From Clostridiaceae bacterium (GTDB lineage Bacteria > Bacillota > Clostridia > Oscillospirales > Acutalibacteraceae): DNA of 59,103 bases. This document shows, piece after piece, positions 51,401-58,969 of this stretch (within the stretch, counting starts at the first letter, position 1; each line of letters opens with the position of its first letter). Location of the stretch: NCBI GenBank assembly GCA_016280595.1, contig JAEEHB010000050.1, positions 1 through 59,103 of the forward strand. The letters are read 5' to 3'. The position numbers and the translations under genes are program-made. The notes beneath the pieces were generated by a model that saw nothing but the letters and a program-made list of their open reading frames with translations, searched no databases and was not told the DNA's origin.

Positions 51401-52459
51401 ATGATTTTTACACCCGAACTTATGAAACTTGAAAACGGCGCTCCCGTCACAAACGAAGCGGATATGCACCTGCGCAGAGAAGAAATGCTCGAAATACTGA
51501 AAAAGTATGCCTACGGCGATATGCCCGCTCCCGTGCCCGTAAGCGGAGAGGTTGTGTCTGCCGAAAAGAAGTGCGCCGCAGGCAAGGCGATGCTCTACGG
51601 CATAAACATAACCTGCGATTTCGGCGAAAAACAATTCACCTTCCCCGTGAAACTGTTTATGCCGCACGGAGAAGGAAGAAGAAAACTTATAACCGTTATA
51701 AACTTTACCGAAAGTCCTTATGACAAATATATTCCGTCAGAGGAAATAATCGATAACGGCTTTGCCCTGGCATATATATGGTATGAGGATATAGCCTCCG
51801 ACAGTGCCGATTTCGAAAAAGGCGTTGCCCCGTTTTTCCCGCGCACGGGAAGCGGCAGAGACCCCGCGAAAATCAGCATGTGGGCGTGGGGCTTGAGCCG
51901 CGCTCTCGACTACCTCTCAACAAGGGATGATGTTGACCCGGATAATCTTGCGGTAATCGGTCACTCCCGTCTCGGCAAAACCGCGCTCTGGTGCGCCGCA
52001 AATGACGAGAGAGTGAAATTTGCCTGCTCAAACGATTCCGGCTGTATGGGCGCGGCATATCACCGCACCCTTCACGAGGGCGGCGAGCCGCTTTCTTCAA
52101 TAGCAAATGTATTTCCTTACTGGTTTTGCGAAAATATACAGAAGTTTGAGGGCGATTCATCTGCCCTTCCCTACGACCAGCATTTCCTGCTCGCCTGCAT
52201 CGCGCCGAGATTCGTGCTTATAAACAGCGCCTCTCTCAACGATTGGGCGGACCCGTATTCGGAGCAGCTGACCTGCGCCGCCGCCTCCCCTGCCTGGAAA
52301 GTTTACGGCAAAGCGGGCTACAAGGGCGGCACGGAAGAATACGGCGCCGACGAGGGCTGCCTTTACGGTGAGGTCGCGTATTTCAAACGATACGGCGTTC
52401 ATTTCCTCGGCAGAAAAGACTGGCAGAATCTTATGTTTGTGATATCACATAACACTTAA
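51401..52459 (+). CDS. Carbohydrate esterase family 15 (glucuronoyl esterase-like)
   Basis: A 352-residue alpha/beta hydrolase of the CE15 type, which cleaves ester links between lignin and 4-O-methyl-glucuronic acid of xylan. The nucleophile Ser is in VIGHSRLGKTALW near residue 190, the following SNDSGCMGAAYHR near 210 is the family loop, PYDQHFLLACIAPRFVLINSA near 258 is conserved, and the catalytic His is in RYGVHFLGRKDW near 335. Unlike most CE15 enzymes it has no signal peptide, so it would act inside the cell on imported glucuronoyl esters. It is convergent with larE and overlaps it by 15 bases. Confidence 0.88.
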   Translation: MIFTPELMKLENGAPVTNEADMHLRREEMLEILKKYAYGDMPAPVPVSGEVVSAEKKCAAGKAMLYGINITCDFGEKQFTFPVKLFMPHGEGRRKLITVINFTESPYDKYIPSEEIIDNGFALAYIWYEDIASDSADFEKGVAPFFPRTGSGRDPAKISMWAWGLSRALDYLSTRDDVDPDNLAVIGHSRLGKTALWCAANDERVKFACSNDSGCMGAAYHRTLHEGGEPLSSIANVFPYWFCENIQKFEGDSSALPYDQHFLLACIAPRFVLINSASLNDWADPYSEQLTCAAASPAWKVYGKAGYKGGTEEYGADEGCLYGEVAYFKRYGVHFLGRKDWQNLMFVISHNT

Positions 52460-53260
52460 ATCCCTGTTCATACTGCCTGTCTCGTATCCGGCGAGGTTCG
52501 CCGTCACATAATGAAAACCGAGAGAGCGCAGATATGAATTTATTTCGGCGGATATGTTTTCGCCGGCAAGCAGAGCAAGTTTGTCTTTTTCAACTTCTAT
52601 TCGGGCGAGTGAGCCGTGCATACGCACCCTCGCCTGTGTGAATCCCATATCAAACAGTTTTTGCTCCGCTTTTTCTATAATACGGAGTTTTTCGGCGGTG
52701 ACCGCTTCTCCGTATGCAATTCTTGTCGCAAGGCACGCATAAGAAGGCTTGCTCCACGTGGGCAGGCCTTCTTCTTTTGAAAGAATGCGGATATCCTCTT
52801 TCGTCAGCCCCGCCTCTTTGAGAGGGCTGATAATTCCGAGCTCATCAAGGGCTCTCATACCCGGGCGGTAATCGCCCGTGTCGCTTGCGTTTGAGCCGTC
52901 CGCAACGGTGTGAATTCCTTCTTTTTCCGCCGCCTCTTTTAGGGCCGTGAAAAGCGCTTTTTTGCAGTGATAGCACCTGTCGGGCGGGTTTTTGACAAAG
53001 GCGTCAAGGCTGAGCAAATCGGGCGTGATTACAATCTGTTTTATGCCGTTTTCGCGGCAGAAGTCAGCCGCTTCGACGCTCTCCCTTTCGGGGTTTACGG
53101 GCGAAACGCAGGTAAGCGCAACCGCGTTTTCCTTAAGCGCCTCGCTGCATATTTTCAGCAGAAAAGTCGAGTCAACTCCCGCCGAAAATGCCACCGCGAT
53201 TTTGCCGGGCGACTGTATGCGCGAAATCAGTTTTTCTTTTTTAAGATGCAGTTCATCCAT
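52445..53260 (-). CDS. larE: Sacrificial sulfur transferase LarE
   Basis: A 271-residue ATP-dependent PP-loop enzyme that donates sulfur to the nickel-pincer nucleotide. The PP-loop is VAFSAGVDSTFLL near residue 26, with PPDRCYHCKKALF near 90 and the sacrificial Cys in SYACLATRIAYGE near 172. It is the last of three lar genes. The start at MDELHLKK overlaps the larC stop. A TTG four codons earlier is possible. LarE loses its Cys sulfur in each round in studied forms with this Cys. Confidence 0.92.
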   Translation of the reverse strand: MDELHLKKEKLISRIQSPGKIAVAFSAGVDSTFLLKICSEALKENAVALTCVSPVNPERESVEAADFCRENGIKQIVITPDLLSLDAFVKNPPDRCYHCKKALFTALKEAAEKEGIHTVADGSNASDTGDYRPGMRALDELGIISPLKEAGLTKEDIRILSKEEGLPTWSKPSYACLATRIAYGEAVTAEKLRIIEKAEQKLFDMGFTQARVRMHGSLARIEVEKDKLALLAGENISAEINSYLRSLGFHYVTANLAGYETGSMNRDLSVM

Positions 53261-54470
53261 TTTCTTTTTCAATAAGCGCCTGCGCCTCTCTGAGCGATAT
53301 TCCCCTGTCTTTCGCTATGCGGGCGAGGTCTTCATATTCATATTTTTCTTTTGTCACTCCGTAACCGGAGGACACTTTTTTTCTCACTTCTCCGCAGGGT
53401 GTGTCAAGAGTAACCGTGCGTCTGTCAAGCACATATCTTTTCACCGCCGTTTCGCGCACGCCGATAGTGGAGGTGTGCCTGAAAATAAGGGAAAGTATTT
53501 TGTCTCTGTCCGCCTGTTTGCACAGCACGGTAATCATTGTCCCGGGGCGCGATTTTTTCATGCCCGCGGGCAGGGTGAAAACTTCGAGCGCTCCGCCTTC
53601 AAGCAGAGCCTCACAGGCAAAGCCCGTTTCCTCCGCCGTCATATCGTCAACATTGAACGAAATCTCGCACACGGTCTGAGCCGTGTTTTCTGTTTCGCCG
53701 ATGACCGCACGTACGCAGTTTGCCGCCGGGAAATCTTTCGCGCCCGCTCCGTAGGCTGTTTTTTCCGCCTTCATCAGCGGCTGATTTTCAAAGCGGGTCG
53801 CAAAATATTTGAGCAGAGCTGCTCCCGTGGGTGTGCAGAGTTCACCCTCAATGTCTCCCGCGTAAGTCGGTATGCCTTCAAGAATGCGTGCCGCCGCGGG
53901 TGCGGGCACGGGCAGAATTCCGTGAGCGCATTTTACTTTTCCGAATCCCGTTCTCACAGGCGAAACAACTATTTCATCAGGCGCGAGTTCGTTTATCGCA
54001 AGGCTGGCGGCGGTGATATCCGCGAGCGCGTCCGCCGTGCCGATTTCGTGAAAATGTATCTCCTCAACGGGCACTCCGTGAACGCTGCTCTCCGCCTGCG
54101 CAAGTATCGAATATACGCCGAGAATATCTTTTTTTACTTTATCGGAAACGCCTTCAAAATCCTCAACCGTATGGGTGATTCTGTGCATCACGCCGCCGTG
54201 ATGATGATTGTGATGATGCTCGTGGTGATGGCCGTCATCGTGTAATCCGTGCCTGTGCTCCCACACTTCATCACCATCGACAAACACCGAAAAGTGCAGA
54301 CCTGTTATGCCGCATTTCACGCTTTCTTTAAGGTCTGTCATCACTCCGGGAATGCCGGCTGAATTAAGTTTTTTTATAAACGCGTCCGGGTCGGGCAGCA
54401 GCCCGGCAACGGCGGCGGTGAGCATATCCCCCGCCGCGCCCATTCCGCAGTCAAGATAAAGTATTTTCAT
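53253..54470 (-). CDS. larC: Nickel insertion protein LarC
   Basis: A 405-residue LarC, the cyclometallase that inserts nickel into the pincer cofactor. It opens [14 protein letters not shown] His-rich loop (about 75-95, [11 protein letters not shown]) can collect nickel. [12 protein letters not shown] near 140 and [17 protein letters not shown] near 285 are family motifs. In Lactobacillus plantarum LarC is made by a programmed frameshift between larC1 and larC2. Here the frame is continuous. It overlaps larB by 4 bases. Confidence 0.94.
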
Positions 54471-55222
54471 TTTTCTGCCTCCATATGATTAATCATTGAA
54501 GCGAGGTAACCCGCGCCGAAACCGTTGTCGATATTGACCACCGACACTCCCGACGCACAGGAATTGAGCATTGAAAGAAGGGCGGAAAGCCCGCCGAATG
54601 AGGCTCCGTATCCGACGCTTGTGGGCACCGCAATCACGGGGCAGTCCGCAAGGCCGCCCACCACACTCGCGAGCGCGCCCTCCATACCCGCAACGGCGAT
54701 AATCACGCTCGCGTGCATTATCTCCTCTTTGCAGCTCATCAGACGGTGTATGCCCGCAACGCCCACATCATAAAGGCGGACAACTTTGTTGCCGAAAAAC
54801 TCCGCGGTCTGCGCCGCCTCCTCGGCAACGGGGATGTCGCTTGTGCCTCCCGTGGCAACCGCTATTGTGCCTATACCGTCGGGTGCGGGCGGAGCGCCGA
54901 GTGCCGCGCATCTCGACTGCTCATTATATGCAAGCGGATATTTTTCCTTAAGAATTTCGTACTTTTCCGCAGAGAGGCGGGTGATAAGTATTCTCTGCTG
55001 CCCGTTTGCGAGCATTGTGTCCGTTATGCCCTCAATCTGCCGGGCCGTTTTGCCCTCGCCGTAGATTACCTCCGGCATACCCTGCCTTATGCTGCGGTGA
55101 AGGTCAACCTTGGCGTAGCCGATATCCGCGAAGGGCTGTGTTTTAAGGCTTGTGAGCGCCTCATCAACGGTTATTCTGCCGTCGCGCACCCCTTCAAGTA
55201 TATTTTTGACCTGAGTTTTCAT
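54467..55222 (-). CDS. larB: Pyridinium-3,5-biscarboxylic acid mononucleotide synthase LarB
   Basis: A 251-residue LarB, which carboxylates nicotinic acid adenine dinucleotide in the first step of nickel-pincer nucleotide synthesis. The C-terminal half is PurE-like: [23 protein letters not shown] near residue 130 and [33 protein letters not shown] in parts near 180-215. It is the first gene of larB-larC-larE, driven by the promoter at 55257-55285. larA, the racemase that uses the cofactor, is not in the window. Confidence 0.95.
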
Positions 55223-55410: not shown

Positions 55411-55439
55411 TTGATTTCTCTTTATATAAAATATATTAT
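55411..55439 (+). promoter_or_regulatory. Promoter of the ligase-condensation-ACP cassette
   Basis: TTGATT (55411-55416), 17-bp spacer, TATTAT (55434-55439), 64 bases before the ligase ATG. It is AT-rich. Confidence 0.75.
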
Positions 55440-55503: not shown

Positions 55504-57045
55504 ATGAAAGAATTGTATGTTCCCACCCTGAGGGAAATAATCGATAACAGCGCCGCAAAATACGGATCGAAAACTTTCATAAAATATCTCAAAGATGACG
55601 AGATAGTTGAAAAGAGTTACAGCGAAGTACGCCGTGACGCAATAGCCGTATGCAGATACATCCGTAAATTCACCACCGAAAAGCAGCATATCGCGGTGCT
55701 CGGCAAAACTTCATACGAGCACATCATCTTTATGCTCGGCGTTATTCTCAGCGGCAACGTGCTTGTGCCCCTCGCCCCCGAAATCTCGGCGGACGAAGCG
55801 GCAATGCTCGTGAAAGACGCGGACGTAAACGCATTCCTTTACGGCAACGTTTTCAAGGACAGGGCAGCCGATCTCAAGAGGCAGTGCCCTCACCTTTTCC
55901 CCTTTATGAATTATGATGATGACATCATTATGGCGCTTGTCGCAGACAAGTTTTCGGATGAGAGCGAGTTTGCCTCTCTTTCGGAGTTTGAGGTTGACAA
56001 GGAAGAATGCTGCACCATCGTTTATACTTCCGGCACCACCGGGCGCAAAAAGGGCGTTATGCTCTCAACCAATTCGCTCATCGGCAACATTATGTATACC
56101 GACAAGTGGGATGTGCTCACCGAAGGGCGCTCAACGCTCAGCGTGCTCCCGATGCACCACCTCTACTGCTTCTCGGGCGACGTGATACGCAACCTGCGCG
56201 ACGGCGTTACTCTCTGCTTAAACGGCGAAATCAGAGACCTGCAGAAAAACATTCTCAGATTCCAGCCCTATGTTATGAGAATAGTTCCCCTCATTGCGCA
56301 GTCGCTTCTCCAGAGATTCAGGGTTGTTTCGTCAAAGAATCCCGGGCTCACCACCTCGCAGGCGGCTGAACTCGTTTTCGGAAAGCACTTAAGACAGATT
56401 ATCTCAGGCGCCGCCTACCTCAAGCCCTCGCTTGTTGCCGAATACGCAAAACTCGGCATCAAACTCATTCAGGGCTACGGTATGACCGAGGCAGGCTGCA
56501 GAATCGCCGTGCCCGACCCCGCCGCTCCCGTAGGCGCGGTAGGCAGGGTTATCGACATCTGCGAAGTGCGCACATCCGCAGGCGAAATCCAGGTGCGCAC
56601 CCCCTCCGTAATGCTCGGCTATTATAAAATGCCGGAAAAAACCGCCGAAATGTTTACCGAAGACGGCTGGCTGCGCACGGGTGACATAGGCGAGGTTGAC
56701 GAAAACGGTTTCCTGTTTATCAGCGGCAGGCTTAAAAACCTGATTATTCTCTCAGGCGGAGAAAATGTTTCACCCGAGGCGATTGAGAAAAAATTCGCAA
56801 ACTACGAGCCCGTTGCGGAAATACTCGTAAGAGCGGAAAACGACAGACTTGTTGCCGATGTTTTCCCCGATTATGATTACTGCAGAATGAGCGGAATCGA
56901 CGACATCGAAAAGACTATCAGAGACAAGGTCAACGAGATGAATATAACCGCGAAACCCTCGCACATCATCTCCGAAGTAAACATATACGAAAATCCTCTT
57001 CCCAAAACGGCAACCGGCAAACTCAAACGCCGCTACAATATATAA
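55504..57045 (+). CDS. AMP-forming acyl/aminoacyl ligase (adenylation enzyme)
   Basis: A 513-residue ANL-superfamily enzyme that activates a carboxylate with ATP. Core motifs in order are YTSGTTGRKKGVML near residue 177 (A3), QGYGMTEAGCRI near 324 (A5), LRTGDIGEVDENGFLFISGR near 391 (A7/A8) and LPKTATGKLKRR at the end (A10 Lys). It is closest in style to long-chain acyl-CoA synthetases/fatty acyl-AMP ligases, so the substrate may be an acyl chain, though an amino acid cannot be excluded. It is followed 22 bases later by a condensation-domain gene and then an ACP, so it probably loads that carrier. Confidence 0.88.
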   Translation: MKELYVPTLREIIDNSAAKYGSKTFIKYLKDDEIVEKSYSEVRRDAIAVCRYIRKFTTEKQHIAVLGKTSYEHIIFMLGVILSGNVLVPLAPEISADEAAMLVKDADVNAFLYGNVFKDRAADLKRQCPHLFPFMNYDDDIIMALVADKFSDESEFASLSEFEVDKEECCTIVYTSGTTGRKKGVMLSTNSLIGNIMYTDKWDVLTEGRSTLSVLPMHHLYCFSGDVIRNLRDGVTLCLNGEIRDLQKNILRFQPYVMRIVPLIAQSLLQRFRVVSSKNPGLTTSQAAELVFGKHLRQIISGAAYLKPSLVAEYAKLGIKLIQGYGMTEAGCRIAVPDPAAPVGAVGRVIDICEVRTSAGEIQVRTPSVMLGYYKMPEKTAEMFTEDGWLRTGDIGEVDENGFLFISGRLKNLIILSGGENVSPEAIEKKFANYEPVAEILVRAENDRLVADVFPDYDYCRMSGIDDIEKTIRDKVNEMNITAKPSHIISEVNIYENPLPKTATGKLKRRYNI

Positions 57046-57067
57046 CAAATCAGAAACGAGGACCGAA

Positions 57068-58450
57068 ATGAGTAAAGACATCAAGTATTATCCCTTTACC
57101 CCTGCGCAGGAAATGATTAATTTCATGCTCAAATACAGTTTCTTCCACAAACAGGTTATCCAGATTCCCGCTTCGATAGTTGTCAAAAGAAAAATCGACT
57201 TCGATCTTATGCAGAAGGCTCTCGAAATCGAAATCGAAAGAAATGACTGCATGCGCCTGCGCTTTGAGAAAAAAGGTGGCTGCCGCCAGTATTTCGCGGA
57301 CAGCATAAACTTCGGCAAAGTGCCCGTTAAGACCTTCTCGAGCCTTGAGGAGCAGGAGGCGTTTTTAACCGCCGACGCTCAGAAGCCCATCCGTTTCCTT
57401 AAGGGCGAAACCTACCGCATGTACTTCTTCAACACCGCAGACGGCAGATACGGTATCTACATCAACGTAATTCACCTTGCGATGGACGCCCCCGCAGTGT
57501 TCATCTTCTTTGCGGACCTGCTCGCCGTATATGAGGCGCTTGAATCCGGCTCCGAAATGCCCAAGCCCCTCGGCAGTTTTGAAACCGCAATTCAGAAAGA
57601 ACTCGAATATATCAACAACGAAGACAAAGTCAACGCCGACAAAGACTTCTATATCAACTACTTCAAGAAAGACGGCGAGCCCGTCTGGAACGGCGTTATG
57701 GGTCCCGGCCCTCTTGACAGAGTGAGAGAAAAGAAAAAGAACCCCGATCTCAAATCCTGCGGCAGTTTCGACCCGATTCACGACCAGGCAGTGCTCGAAA
57801 AGAAAACTCTTTCGGTTGAGGACAGCAAAATAATTCTCGACTATATGGAAAAGAACAGCCTAAGCGGCGAATGCGTCGTTCAGCTCGGTATGCGCCTGCA
57901 CGTAGGCAAAATCAACCACAGGCACAATGACACGCATTTCCTCGTTCTCTCCAACAGACGCAAGACTCTCAACGACAAGCGCTGCGGCGGCACACTGGCT
58001 TCCGCTCTGCCCTGGAGAGTTATTCTGCCCGAAGACCTCACGTTTGCGCAGGCTGTTGAAAAACTCAGACTGCTCCAGAGTGAGATTATGAGGCACAACA
58101 ACTATCCCTTCATCAACTGGCTTGAAGAGGAGCGCAAACTTTTCAACTACAGTATGAAAGACGGCACCACCACAATGATGTTCTCATGGTTCCCGCTTGA
58201 AGACAACACCATGAACGGCTGGGATTATGAATTCCACGGCTACAGCATCGGCCATTATGTAATGCCGCTTTACACTTATGCAATGAAGGATTCCGTGACC
58301 GGCGGCCTGAGATTTGCATATCTCCACAGGACCGACACCATTTCGAGCGCGGATATTGACCGCCTTCAGGACAATATGGTAAAGGCGCTTGTAATGGGCT
58401 GCTCGAATCCCGACATAACTCTGAAAGAAATTCTTGATAATATAGACTGA
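57068..58450 (+). CDS. Stand-alone NRPS-type condensation domain protein
   Basis: A 460-residue protein with the two-lobed condensation (CAT-like acyltransferase) fold. Motif C1 is YPFTPAQEMINFM near residue 9 and C2 is ALEIEIERNDCMRLRF near 57. The active-site motif is VIHLAMDAP near 137, corresponding to HHxxxDG with the second His and the Asp kept. C5-like ALPWRVILPEDLTFAQAVE and HNNYPF lie near 318-353. It would join an ACP-bound acyl or aminoacyl group to an amine or alcohol. Its only partners are the ligase before it and the ACP after it. No thioesterase or reductase is visible. Confidence 0.82.
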   Translation: MSKDIKYYPFTPAQEMINFMLKYSFFHKQVIQIPASIVVKRKIDFDLMQKALEIEIERNDCMRLRFEKKGGCRQYFADSINFGKVPVKTFSSLEEQEAFLTADAQKPIRFLKGETYRMYFFNTADGRYGIYINVIHLAMDAPAVFIFFADLLAVYEALESGSEMPKPLGSFETAIQKELEYINNEDKVNADKDFYINYFKKDGEPVWNGVMGPGPLDRVREKKKNPDLKSCGSFDPIHDQAVLEKKTLSVEDSKIILDYMEKNSLSGECVVQLGMRLHVGKINHRHNDTHFLVLSNRRKTLNDKRCGGTLASALPWRVILPEDLTFAQAVEKLRLLQSEIMRHNNYPFINWLEEERKLFNYSMKDGTTTMMFSWFPLEDNTMNGWDYEFHGYSIGHYVMPLYTYAMKDSVTGGLRFAYLHRTDTISSADIDRLQDNMVKALVMGCSNPDITLKEILDNID

Positions 58451-58464
58451 AAGGAATAACTCAA

Positions 58465-58695
58465 ATGACAGATATGCTTGAAAAAATCAATGAGATAATC
58501 TCCAACTATGTTGATCTCGAAGAGCCTATCACCGAAGAAACCTCCCTGAGAGGCGACCTCGGTATGAGTTCGCTCGACCTTATCAACCTTGCCGTGGAAG
58601 TTGAGGATACTTTCGATGTTATGATTCCCGATAAAGAAATCAACAGCATGAACACCGTAAAAGACCTCATCACCTACCTTGCACTCAAGAAATAA
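58465..58695 (+). CDS. Acyl/peptidyl carrier protein
   Basis: A 76-residue acidic carrier protein with the four-helix pattern of the ACP family. The phosphopantetheine Ser is Ser36 in DLGMSSLDLINL, followed by VEVEDTFDVMIPDKEI, the usual helix-II/III boundary. It lies 14 bases after the condensation gene and is the last gene of the cassette. It is not beside fatty-acid synthesis genes, so it is probably dedicated to the cassette and not the housekeeping AcpP. Confidence 0.93.
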   Translation: MTDMLEKINEIISNYVDLEEPITEETSLRGDLGMSSLDLINLAVEVEDTFDVMIPDKEINSMNTVKDLITYLALKK

Positions 58696-58878: not shown

Positions 58879-58969
58879 GGAGAGATACCGAAGTGGTCAT
58901 AACGGAACGGTCTTGAAAACCGTCGTACTCTCACGGGTACCGTGGGTTCGAATCCCACTCTCTCCGCCA
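58879..58969 (+). tRNA. tRNA-Ser (anticodon TGA)
   Basis: A 91-nt class-II tRNA with encoded CCA. Acceptor GGAGAGA pairs with TCTCTCC. The anticodon stem ACGGT/ACCGT with loop CTTGAAA gives anticodon TGA. A long variable arm (CGTACTCTCACGGGTAC) and the T arm GTGGG/CCCAC, loop TTCGAAT, are complete. Confidence 0.95.

Follow-up and report, generated by a model that had tools for sequence, protein, structure and literature searches.

The closest described counterparts of the locus considered here are two fatty-acid-amide systems of gut Clostridia. In the Oaa system, an amide is formed from a fatty acid and an amine by an acyl ligase, an acyl carrier protein (ACP) and a condensation protein, and its formation depends on the latter (PMC13142362). 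In Blautia, which has the CTA operon, the making of acyl amines has been tied to a defence against toxic fatty acids, and Blautia wexlerae exposed to such acids is rescued by dopamine and some other amines (PMC13060934). Homologues of CTA were found only in Lachnospiraceae among 7,781 isolate genomes at a 70% identity cut-off (PMC13060934), and the known family members make lipids acting on host receptors (PMC13142362; PMC13060934). The stretch analyzed here (the window, 59,103 nucleotides in length) is contig JAEEHB010000050.1 of a Clostridiaceae bacterium from the Acutalibacteraceae (assembly GCA_016280595.1). Near its end it carries three consecutive genes (Table 1) for an AMP-forming acyl ligase (A), a stand-alone condensation protein (C) and an ACP (T). 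Judging from sequence comparisons, this cassette is probably a fatty-acid-amide (CTA-type) synthase operon, a reading to which we give a probability of roughly 0.8.

The three open reading frames at 55504-58695 are all on the plus strand with gaps of 22 and 14 bases. Together with their Pfam matches they agree with the first-pass annotation of this DNA, and the motifs given there, VIHLAMDAP in C and DLGMSSLDL in T, are both present. Two tRNA-Ser genes (at 58879 and 59015) follow T, as had also been described; the window ends with the contig, and the sequence 3' of the cassette is readable only that far. The single promoter proposed earlier is weakly supported: a promoter-like site does precede A, but it is one of 5 in the scanned stretch, where shuffled sequences would give 4.3. 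No terminator-like site was found on the plus strand after the ACP gene. On the evidence of gene order, the three-gene operon is more than a chance arrangement, because A, C and T recur together in relatives. The genus contributed 29 loci besides the window in which C is at least 50% identical (L046, L047 and L081-L107, one per genome). The order A-C-T was present in 22 of them, with L094 and L095 having a second ligase after T; three others (L090, L106 and L107) are cut by contig ends and compatible with A-C-T, which leaves four true exceptions, discussed below. The outcome named earlier as one that would refute the cassette, neighbours showing the three genes to be usually apart, was not obtained. 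The cassette is likewise followed at once by a further acyl ligase at L010:9384-11048, where no ACP was detected, and at L014:9645-11294.

The best solved-structure match of C was 12kh, 'Condensation Domain Protein' (residues 6-457, E 2.8e-42, 148.7 bits), and the next chain, tyrocidine synthase 2, a non-ribosomal peptide synthetase (NRPS), scored 24.9 bits. The entry name of 12kh is generic and its identity with OaaC is not stated by name; most likely it is OaaC of Coprococcus eutactus, because the protein described in PMC13142362 matches in size, with two chains in the crystal. The AlphaFold2 monomer model of C had a confident condensation fold with a mean predicted local distance difference test score of 91.9, and its best Foldseek matches in the PDB were condensation domains with template modelling (TM) scores of about 0.66-0.80 by query. 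The fold search supported the fold and nothing beyond it. When family models, including those for PapA and WS-DGAT, were compared with C, only PF00668 matched at E up to 0.001; the trees described next were built without PapA or WS-DGAT sequences.

Two unrooted trees of C were computed, a quick-method tree of the 96 domains that remained out of 109 once exact duplicates and incomplete C proteins had been removed, and a careful one of 50 rows chosen to span the clades (13 NRPS, 17 window-clade and 20 OaaC-clade). In both, the C of the window grouped with stand-alone C proteins, apart from the NRPS condensation domains, and outside the clade of the characterised OaaC, each clade occupying its own side of a branch. 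The supports in the careful tree were 100/100 for the NRPS domains, 100/100 for the window clade and 99/95 for the OaaC clade, and the quick tree gave the same three-way split. By this phylogeny, C is a member of a well-supported sister clade to the OaaC clade; the placement inside a known characterised family, which had been considered as a possible outcome, was not obtained, C lying beside that family.

The stand-alone proteins were further compared row by row (41 window-clade rows, among them L090 and L107, in which C is truncated by the end of the contig; 30 OaaC-clade rows; 23 NRPS rows; L068, L070, L071 and L079 left out). An insert of about 20 residues is common to the window and OaaC clades, whereas the NRPS domains compared are without it: between columns 198 and 240 there are 39-44 residues in 71/71 stand-alone rows and 18-25 in 23/23 NRPS rows. 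The insert helix comprises residues 214-223 in the model of C; the insert of OaaC consists of 17 residues with a helix and covers the adenylation-domain face (PMC13142362). C proteins of this family are also expected to pair as homodimers in which the carrier site is hidden; the model of C covers the monomer. Moreover, 17 positions are conserved at 80% or more in both stand-alone clades but occur in no more than 25% of the NRPS rows. The catalytic Asp was found in 71/71 and the catalytic His in 70/71 stand-alone rows; in the window clade both His136 and Asp140 are conserved in all 41 rows.

Relatives of C were sought in the genus, family, order, class and phylum, and any match was obtained in 33/45, 26/150, 11/295, 84/391 and 18/299 genomes, respectively, each figure comprising the window's own genome. 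Within the genus, C reaches at least 50% identity in 30 of the 45 genomes, and three (G429, G431 and G450) have only distant C proteins of 28-31% identity, which were not placed in the trees. Among the matches listed, the class search gave 19 genomes besides the own with stand-alone frames (416-505 aa, E 5.2e-113 or better), all of which fall in the OaaC clade of the quick tree; their order is C-T-A in 18 of 19 loci, the nineteenth being cut by a contig end. Among the matches listed, the remainder from the class had E 2.7e-58 or weaker and lay mostly within long NRPS frames; L127 and L136 are short frames, yet they group with NRPS domains. In the phylum, there was no match except the own genome better than E 1.1e-59. 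So far as rows with stated kinship go, the window clade was encountered solely within the order to which the window belongs. Gene order is not strictly clade-bound, four OaaC-clade loci (L062, L063, L065 and L066) having A-C-T; a further one, L069, has C without detected A or T, and L068, below the score cut of the gene-neighbourhood typing, gave no row. The herbivore gut is suggested as the habitat by the titles of those relatives that carry a name, which mention goat omasum, reindeer, horse feces and RUG isolates, the last being presumably rumen genomes. Seven stretches of viral contigs matched the search pattern and none contained a relative, and plasmids gave only weak matches of 20-23% identity in 5 records, two annotated as NRPS or polyketide synthase (PKS) and three without annotation. 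A spread of the cassette by viruses or plasmids was rejected on these two results.

If the cassette is a fatty-acid-amide synthase, a phosphopantetheinyl transferase with its gene at another place in the genome would first arm T, presumably at Ser36, which we assign as the phosphopantetheine site from the ACP consensus. A would then activate a free fatty acid at the expense of ATP and transfer it to the phosphopantetheine arm; its C-terminus reads PKTATGKLKRR, in which we take Lys506 to be the expected catalytic Lys. Finally, C, with the catalytic His136, would couple the acyl group with a small free amine and release an N-acyl amide, and therefore no thioesterase would be needed. By analogy with the described systems, this copy is expected to catalyze the same reaction with a fatty acid as the donor, and the benefit to the cell may lie in the removal of toxic free fatty acids and/or in making a signalling lipid. 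The chemistry put forward in the first-pass annotation, with the ligase loading the ACP, the free condensation protein transferring the acyl group to a soluble amine and no thioesterase, matches the mechanism reported for Oaa and CTA (PMC13142362; PMC13060934). Its other suggestion, a new kind of minimal system, is not supported, since the kind is already described.

In the host genome (78% complete, 1.83 Mb in 65 contigs), a single protein matches the ACPS phosphopantetheinyl transferase family, and it is a relative of the L014 transferase. Relatives of the latter are encoded in the flanks of 10 of the 85 loci scanned, most of them with a flank of only 1.5 kb (the loci do not equal 85 genomes, as several of the L003-L015 contigs occur twice); in L003 and L013 the transferase gene is directly upstream of A. 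There are seven AMP-binding and two PP-binding matches in the host genome, one of each belonging to the cassette. The upstream genes that could be typed were larB, larC, larE and an esterase-like gene, and no thioesterase or exporter was among the genes typed beside the cassette, the genome not having been searched for either family.

Several observations weigh against the fatty-acid-amide reading. The accessible parts of the two papers assay no enzyme of the window clade (PMC13142362; PMC13060934), and the identity of C to eight OaaC-clade rows is 24-27%. The C of the window has Ile before the catalytic His, not the D/H described for the family; its motif is IHxxxDA where PMC13142362 gives (D/H)HxxxDS, and the Ala after the Asp is one of the residues (S, A or G) expected there. 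12kh was absent from the 50 Foldseek rows shown, in which the clearly named rows were NRPS/PKS condensation domains; the entry is probably not in the library, because the library ends on 2026-04-08 and the preprint PMC13142362 is dated 2026-04-28. In the four true exceptions of the genus (4/29), partners are missing. L096 contains A and C together with a second ligase but no T, in agreement with the longer stretch L010; in L099, L101 and L102, C stands by itself, and neither A nor T is near it in the longer stretches L190-L192. In addition, the basal branches of the window clade (L050-L055 and L058) pair C with a different ligase family, A', in the order C-A'-T, and for that reason the donor may vary across the clade. 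L053 has an additional A-like gene on the upstream side and L058 an additional A' on the downstream side; L057, also basal, has C and T with no adjacent ligase. In L056, a GH3-family gene (L056:1570-3240, minus strand) is directly upstream of C, and the contig ends 164 bases after C, so that an ACP or ligase gene may follow beyond this end.

The deviating motif bears on the alternative that survives best, although it is improbable, namely that the acceptor is an alcohol or a hydroxy acid and the cassette makes an ester by PapA-like chemistry. Enzymes with the C fold can make esters, which counts for this possibility. Immediately before the catalytic His, 28/30 OaaC-clade rows carry D or H (D 21, H 7) and 28/41 window-clade rows carry neither, the full set in the latter clade being H 13, I 12, S 11, C 3, F 1 and T 1; after the motif Asp, the window clade has A in 28/41 and N in 13/41. 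The larE-larC-larB genes, divergent beside the cassette, point in the same direction, since larB, larC and larE build the nickel-pincer cofactor of 2-hydroxy-acid racemases, and larC lies at most 5 kb from C in 7 of the 20 genus genomes with both, in two arrangements. However, the two genes are on different contigs in the other 13 genomes (contig breaks could hide some linkage), three genus genomes have larC but no C match, and no lar gene was found in the flanks of ten OaaC-clade loci (L059-L067 and L069; L108-L126 were not searched). Moreover, the 17 conserved positions are common with the branch that holds the amide-forming OaaC. A functional tie of the cassette to larBCE, linked as it is in 7/20 genomes, was not adopted. 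The lar genes come after the cassette on the same strand in L004, L006, L007, L008 and L015. Lar_N, the domain of LarA-like racemases, was matched in 24 of the 45 genus genomes, and none of the listed places was close to C.

Only marginally less probable than ester formation is the idea that the donor is an amino acid, or that the cassette serves as a lipopeptide starter, the chemistry being otherwise the same. AMP-binding enzymes do include amino-acid adenylating domains, and A reached 115 bits with the corresponding model TIGR01733; the top NCBIfam model for A is, however, a long-chain fatty-acid CoA ligase, a fatty-acid ligase model scored 221 bits, and the carrier T, with acyl carrier protein as its top model, matches fatty-acid ACP models (TIGR00517, 1.1e-14). 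All the NCBIfam models shown for A and T are below their curated cut-offs, and none names either protein outright. Of the acyl or amino-acid donor proposed earlier, the amino acid is less likely because A scores higher with the fatty-acid CoA ligase models than with the model for amino-acid adenylation, and a fatty acid is the likelier candidate. The lipopeptide starter was set aside, since the C of the cassette is the sole Condensation match in the genome (78% complete) and no second one was found, so there would be no peptide assembly line to feed.

Least probable of all is a decaying or regulatory leftover with a C that is no longer catalytic, a view for which L099, L101 and L102, having C without A and T in the stretch read, could be cited, but all three frames of the window are open with intact motifs and the His136/Asp140 pair is conserved in all 41 rows of the clade. 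In the longer stretches of these three loci (L190-L192), a similar gene follows C, which in L190, where it was tested with Pfam, is a Gfo/Idh/MocA oxidoreductase; the arrangement of C with an oxidoreductase-like gene looks like a reduced form of the cassette.

Returning to the fatty-acid-amide operon, its ligase and condensation protein appear to have different histories. Compared with L003, the window has 84% identity in C and 57% in A; compared with L009, the values are 62% for C and 72% for A. The tree of C, built from 15 proteins, places the window in a nine-row clade with L003 (100/99); in the A tree, it is with L195 and L009 (100/99). The topologies tested for A and C were taken from the tree of the other gene. 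In approximately unbiased (AU) tests, the C data reject a grouping of the window with L009 (p-AU 0.00077), and the A data reject the exact nine-row C clade (p-AU 3.8e-05; 1.5e-50 with L195 added), as well as the clade without L091 (p-AU 7.5e-07). Because the A and C trees conflict significantly, the simplest reading is that C (or A; the moved gene may be either one) was exchanged between cassettes, as read from the A and C trees. The nearest whole-cassette relative is that of G427, split over two contigs (L195 and L196), with identities of 78% for A, 85-87% for C and 91% for T. In a larger ligase tree, from which 5 of the 66 ligase rows were dropped, four loci agree with this picture: L062, L063, L065 and L066 have a C of the OaaC clade, but their ligases adjoin the window-clade ligases.

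These results would fit a more specific proposal, which we hold tentatively and at somewhat less than even odds: that the window represents a second branch of fatty-acid-amide systems in herbivore-gut Clostridia, making conjugates of an amine or other acceptor outside the known set, and that the C gene, probably together with the acceptor, has been swapped between ligase/ACP backbones. The kind of system is already known, and the window carries a variant of it; the conflict between the A and C trees is the new part. No literature on the window clade in herbivore-gut Clostridia was among the open-access matches listed, and the 127 to ~300 sequences used in PMC13142362 may include some of the window's branch. 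With a separate branch, fatty-acid-amide systems would reach beyond the Lachnospiraceae of the human gut into the guts of herbivores. Should exchange between cassettes be real, natural swaps could teach which residues choose the amine.

Table 1. Coordinates of the cassette, its sites and the typed neighbours in the window.
Feature	Position	Strand	Evidence
A: AMP-forming acyl ligase (fatty-acid CoA ligase-like)	55504..57045	+	513 aa; Pfam AMP-binding 6.2e-51
C: stand-alone condensation protein	57068..58450	+	460 aa; Pfam Condensation 9.1e-27
HxxxD active-site motif of C (His136-Asp140, within IHLAMDA)	57473..57487	+	alignment
Residues 198-240 of C with insert and helix	57659..57787	+	alignment; model
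T: acyl carrier protein	58465..58695	+	76 aa; Pfam PP-binding 8.4e-11
Ser36 of T (GMSSL), predicted phosphopantetheine site	58570..58572	+	ACP consensus; Pfam PP-binding match
Promoter-like site upstream of A	55411..55439	+	9/12 match; not enriched over shuffles
larE-larC-larB (nickel-pincer cofactor genes)	52445..55222	-	
Glucuronyl-esterase-like protein	51401..52459	+	PF22244, 2.2e-33

The gene for the glucuronyl-esterase-like protein adjoins the lar genes. On another contig of the host (C51), three AMP-binding proteins are clustered (L194:4463-12989), one fused to a xylose-isomerase-like barrel and two to helix-turn-helix and cupin domains; the latter are odd-looking ligase-regulator fusions.

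Compared with known systems, the NRPS-module architecture, in which C, adenylation and carrier domains are in one protein, was not found, the three window proteins being separate; a free-standing C of about 460 aa is instead encoded in one operon with a free-standing ligase and ACP. NRPS starter condensation domains, such as that of RzmA (7c1s), have the same fold as C (TM about 0.8) and use an acyl donor, but they form part of large proteins. In the comparison of 23 NRPS domains, RzmA not among them, the motif is HHxxxD[A/G/S] and the insert is absent. The original report of gut-Clostridia fatty-acid-amide clusters is reportedly that of Chang et al. (2021), with the same architecture and presumed reaction. 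It is on these two features that the window is likened to those clusters. The CTA operon of Blautia and other Lachnospiraceae also unites ligase, carrier and condensation protein in one gut-Clostridia operon (PMC13060934); the OaaC-clade rows are far below 70% identity to the C of the window, which is likened to CTA by description. The Oaa system of Coprococcus eutactus likewise consists of three free-standing proteins of the same kinds, OaaA, OaaACP and OaaC (PMC13142362). The window differs from it in the sister-clade position of its C, with the low identity and deviating motif noted above, and from most OaaC-clade loci in having A-C-T in place of C-T-A (the own order of the Oaa cluster was not among the loci compared). 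Overall, the C of the window is related to 12kh over nearly its whole length, and both the insert and the family-specific positions are common to the two branches.

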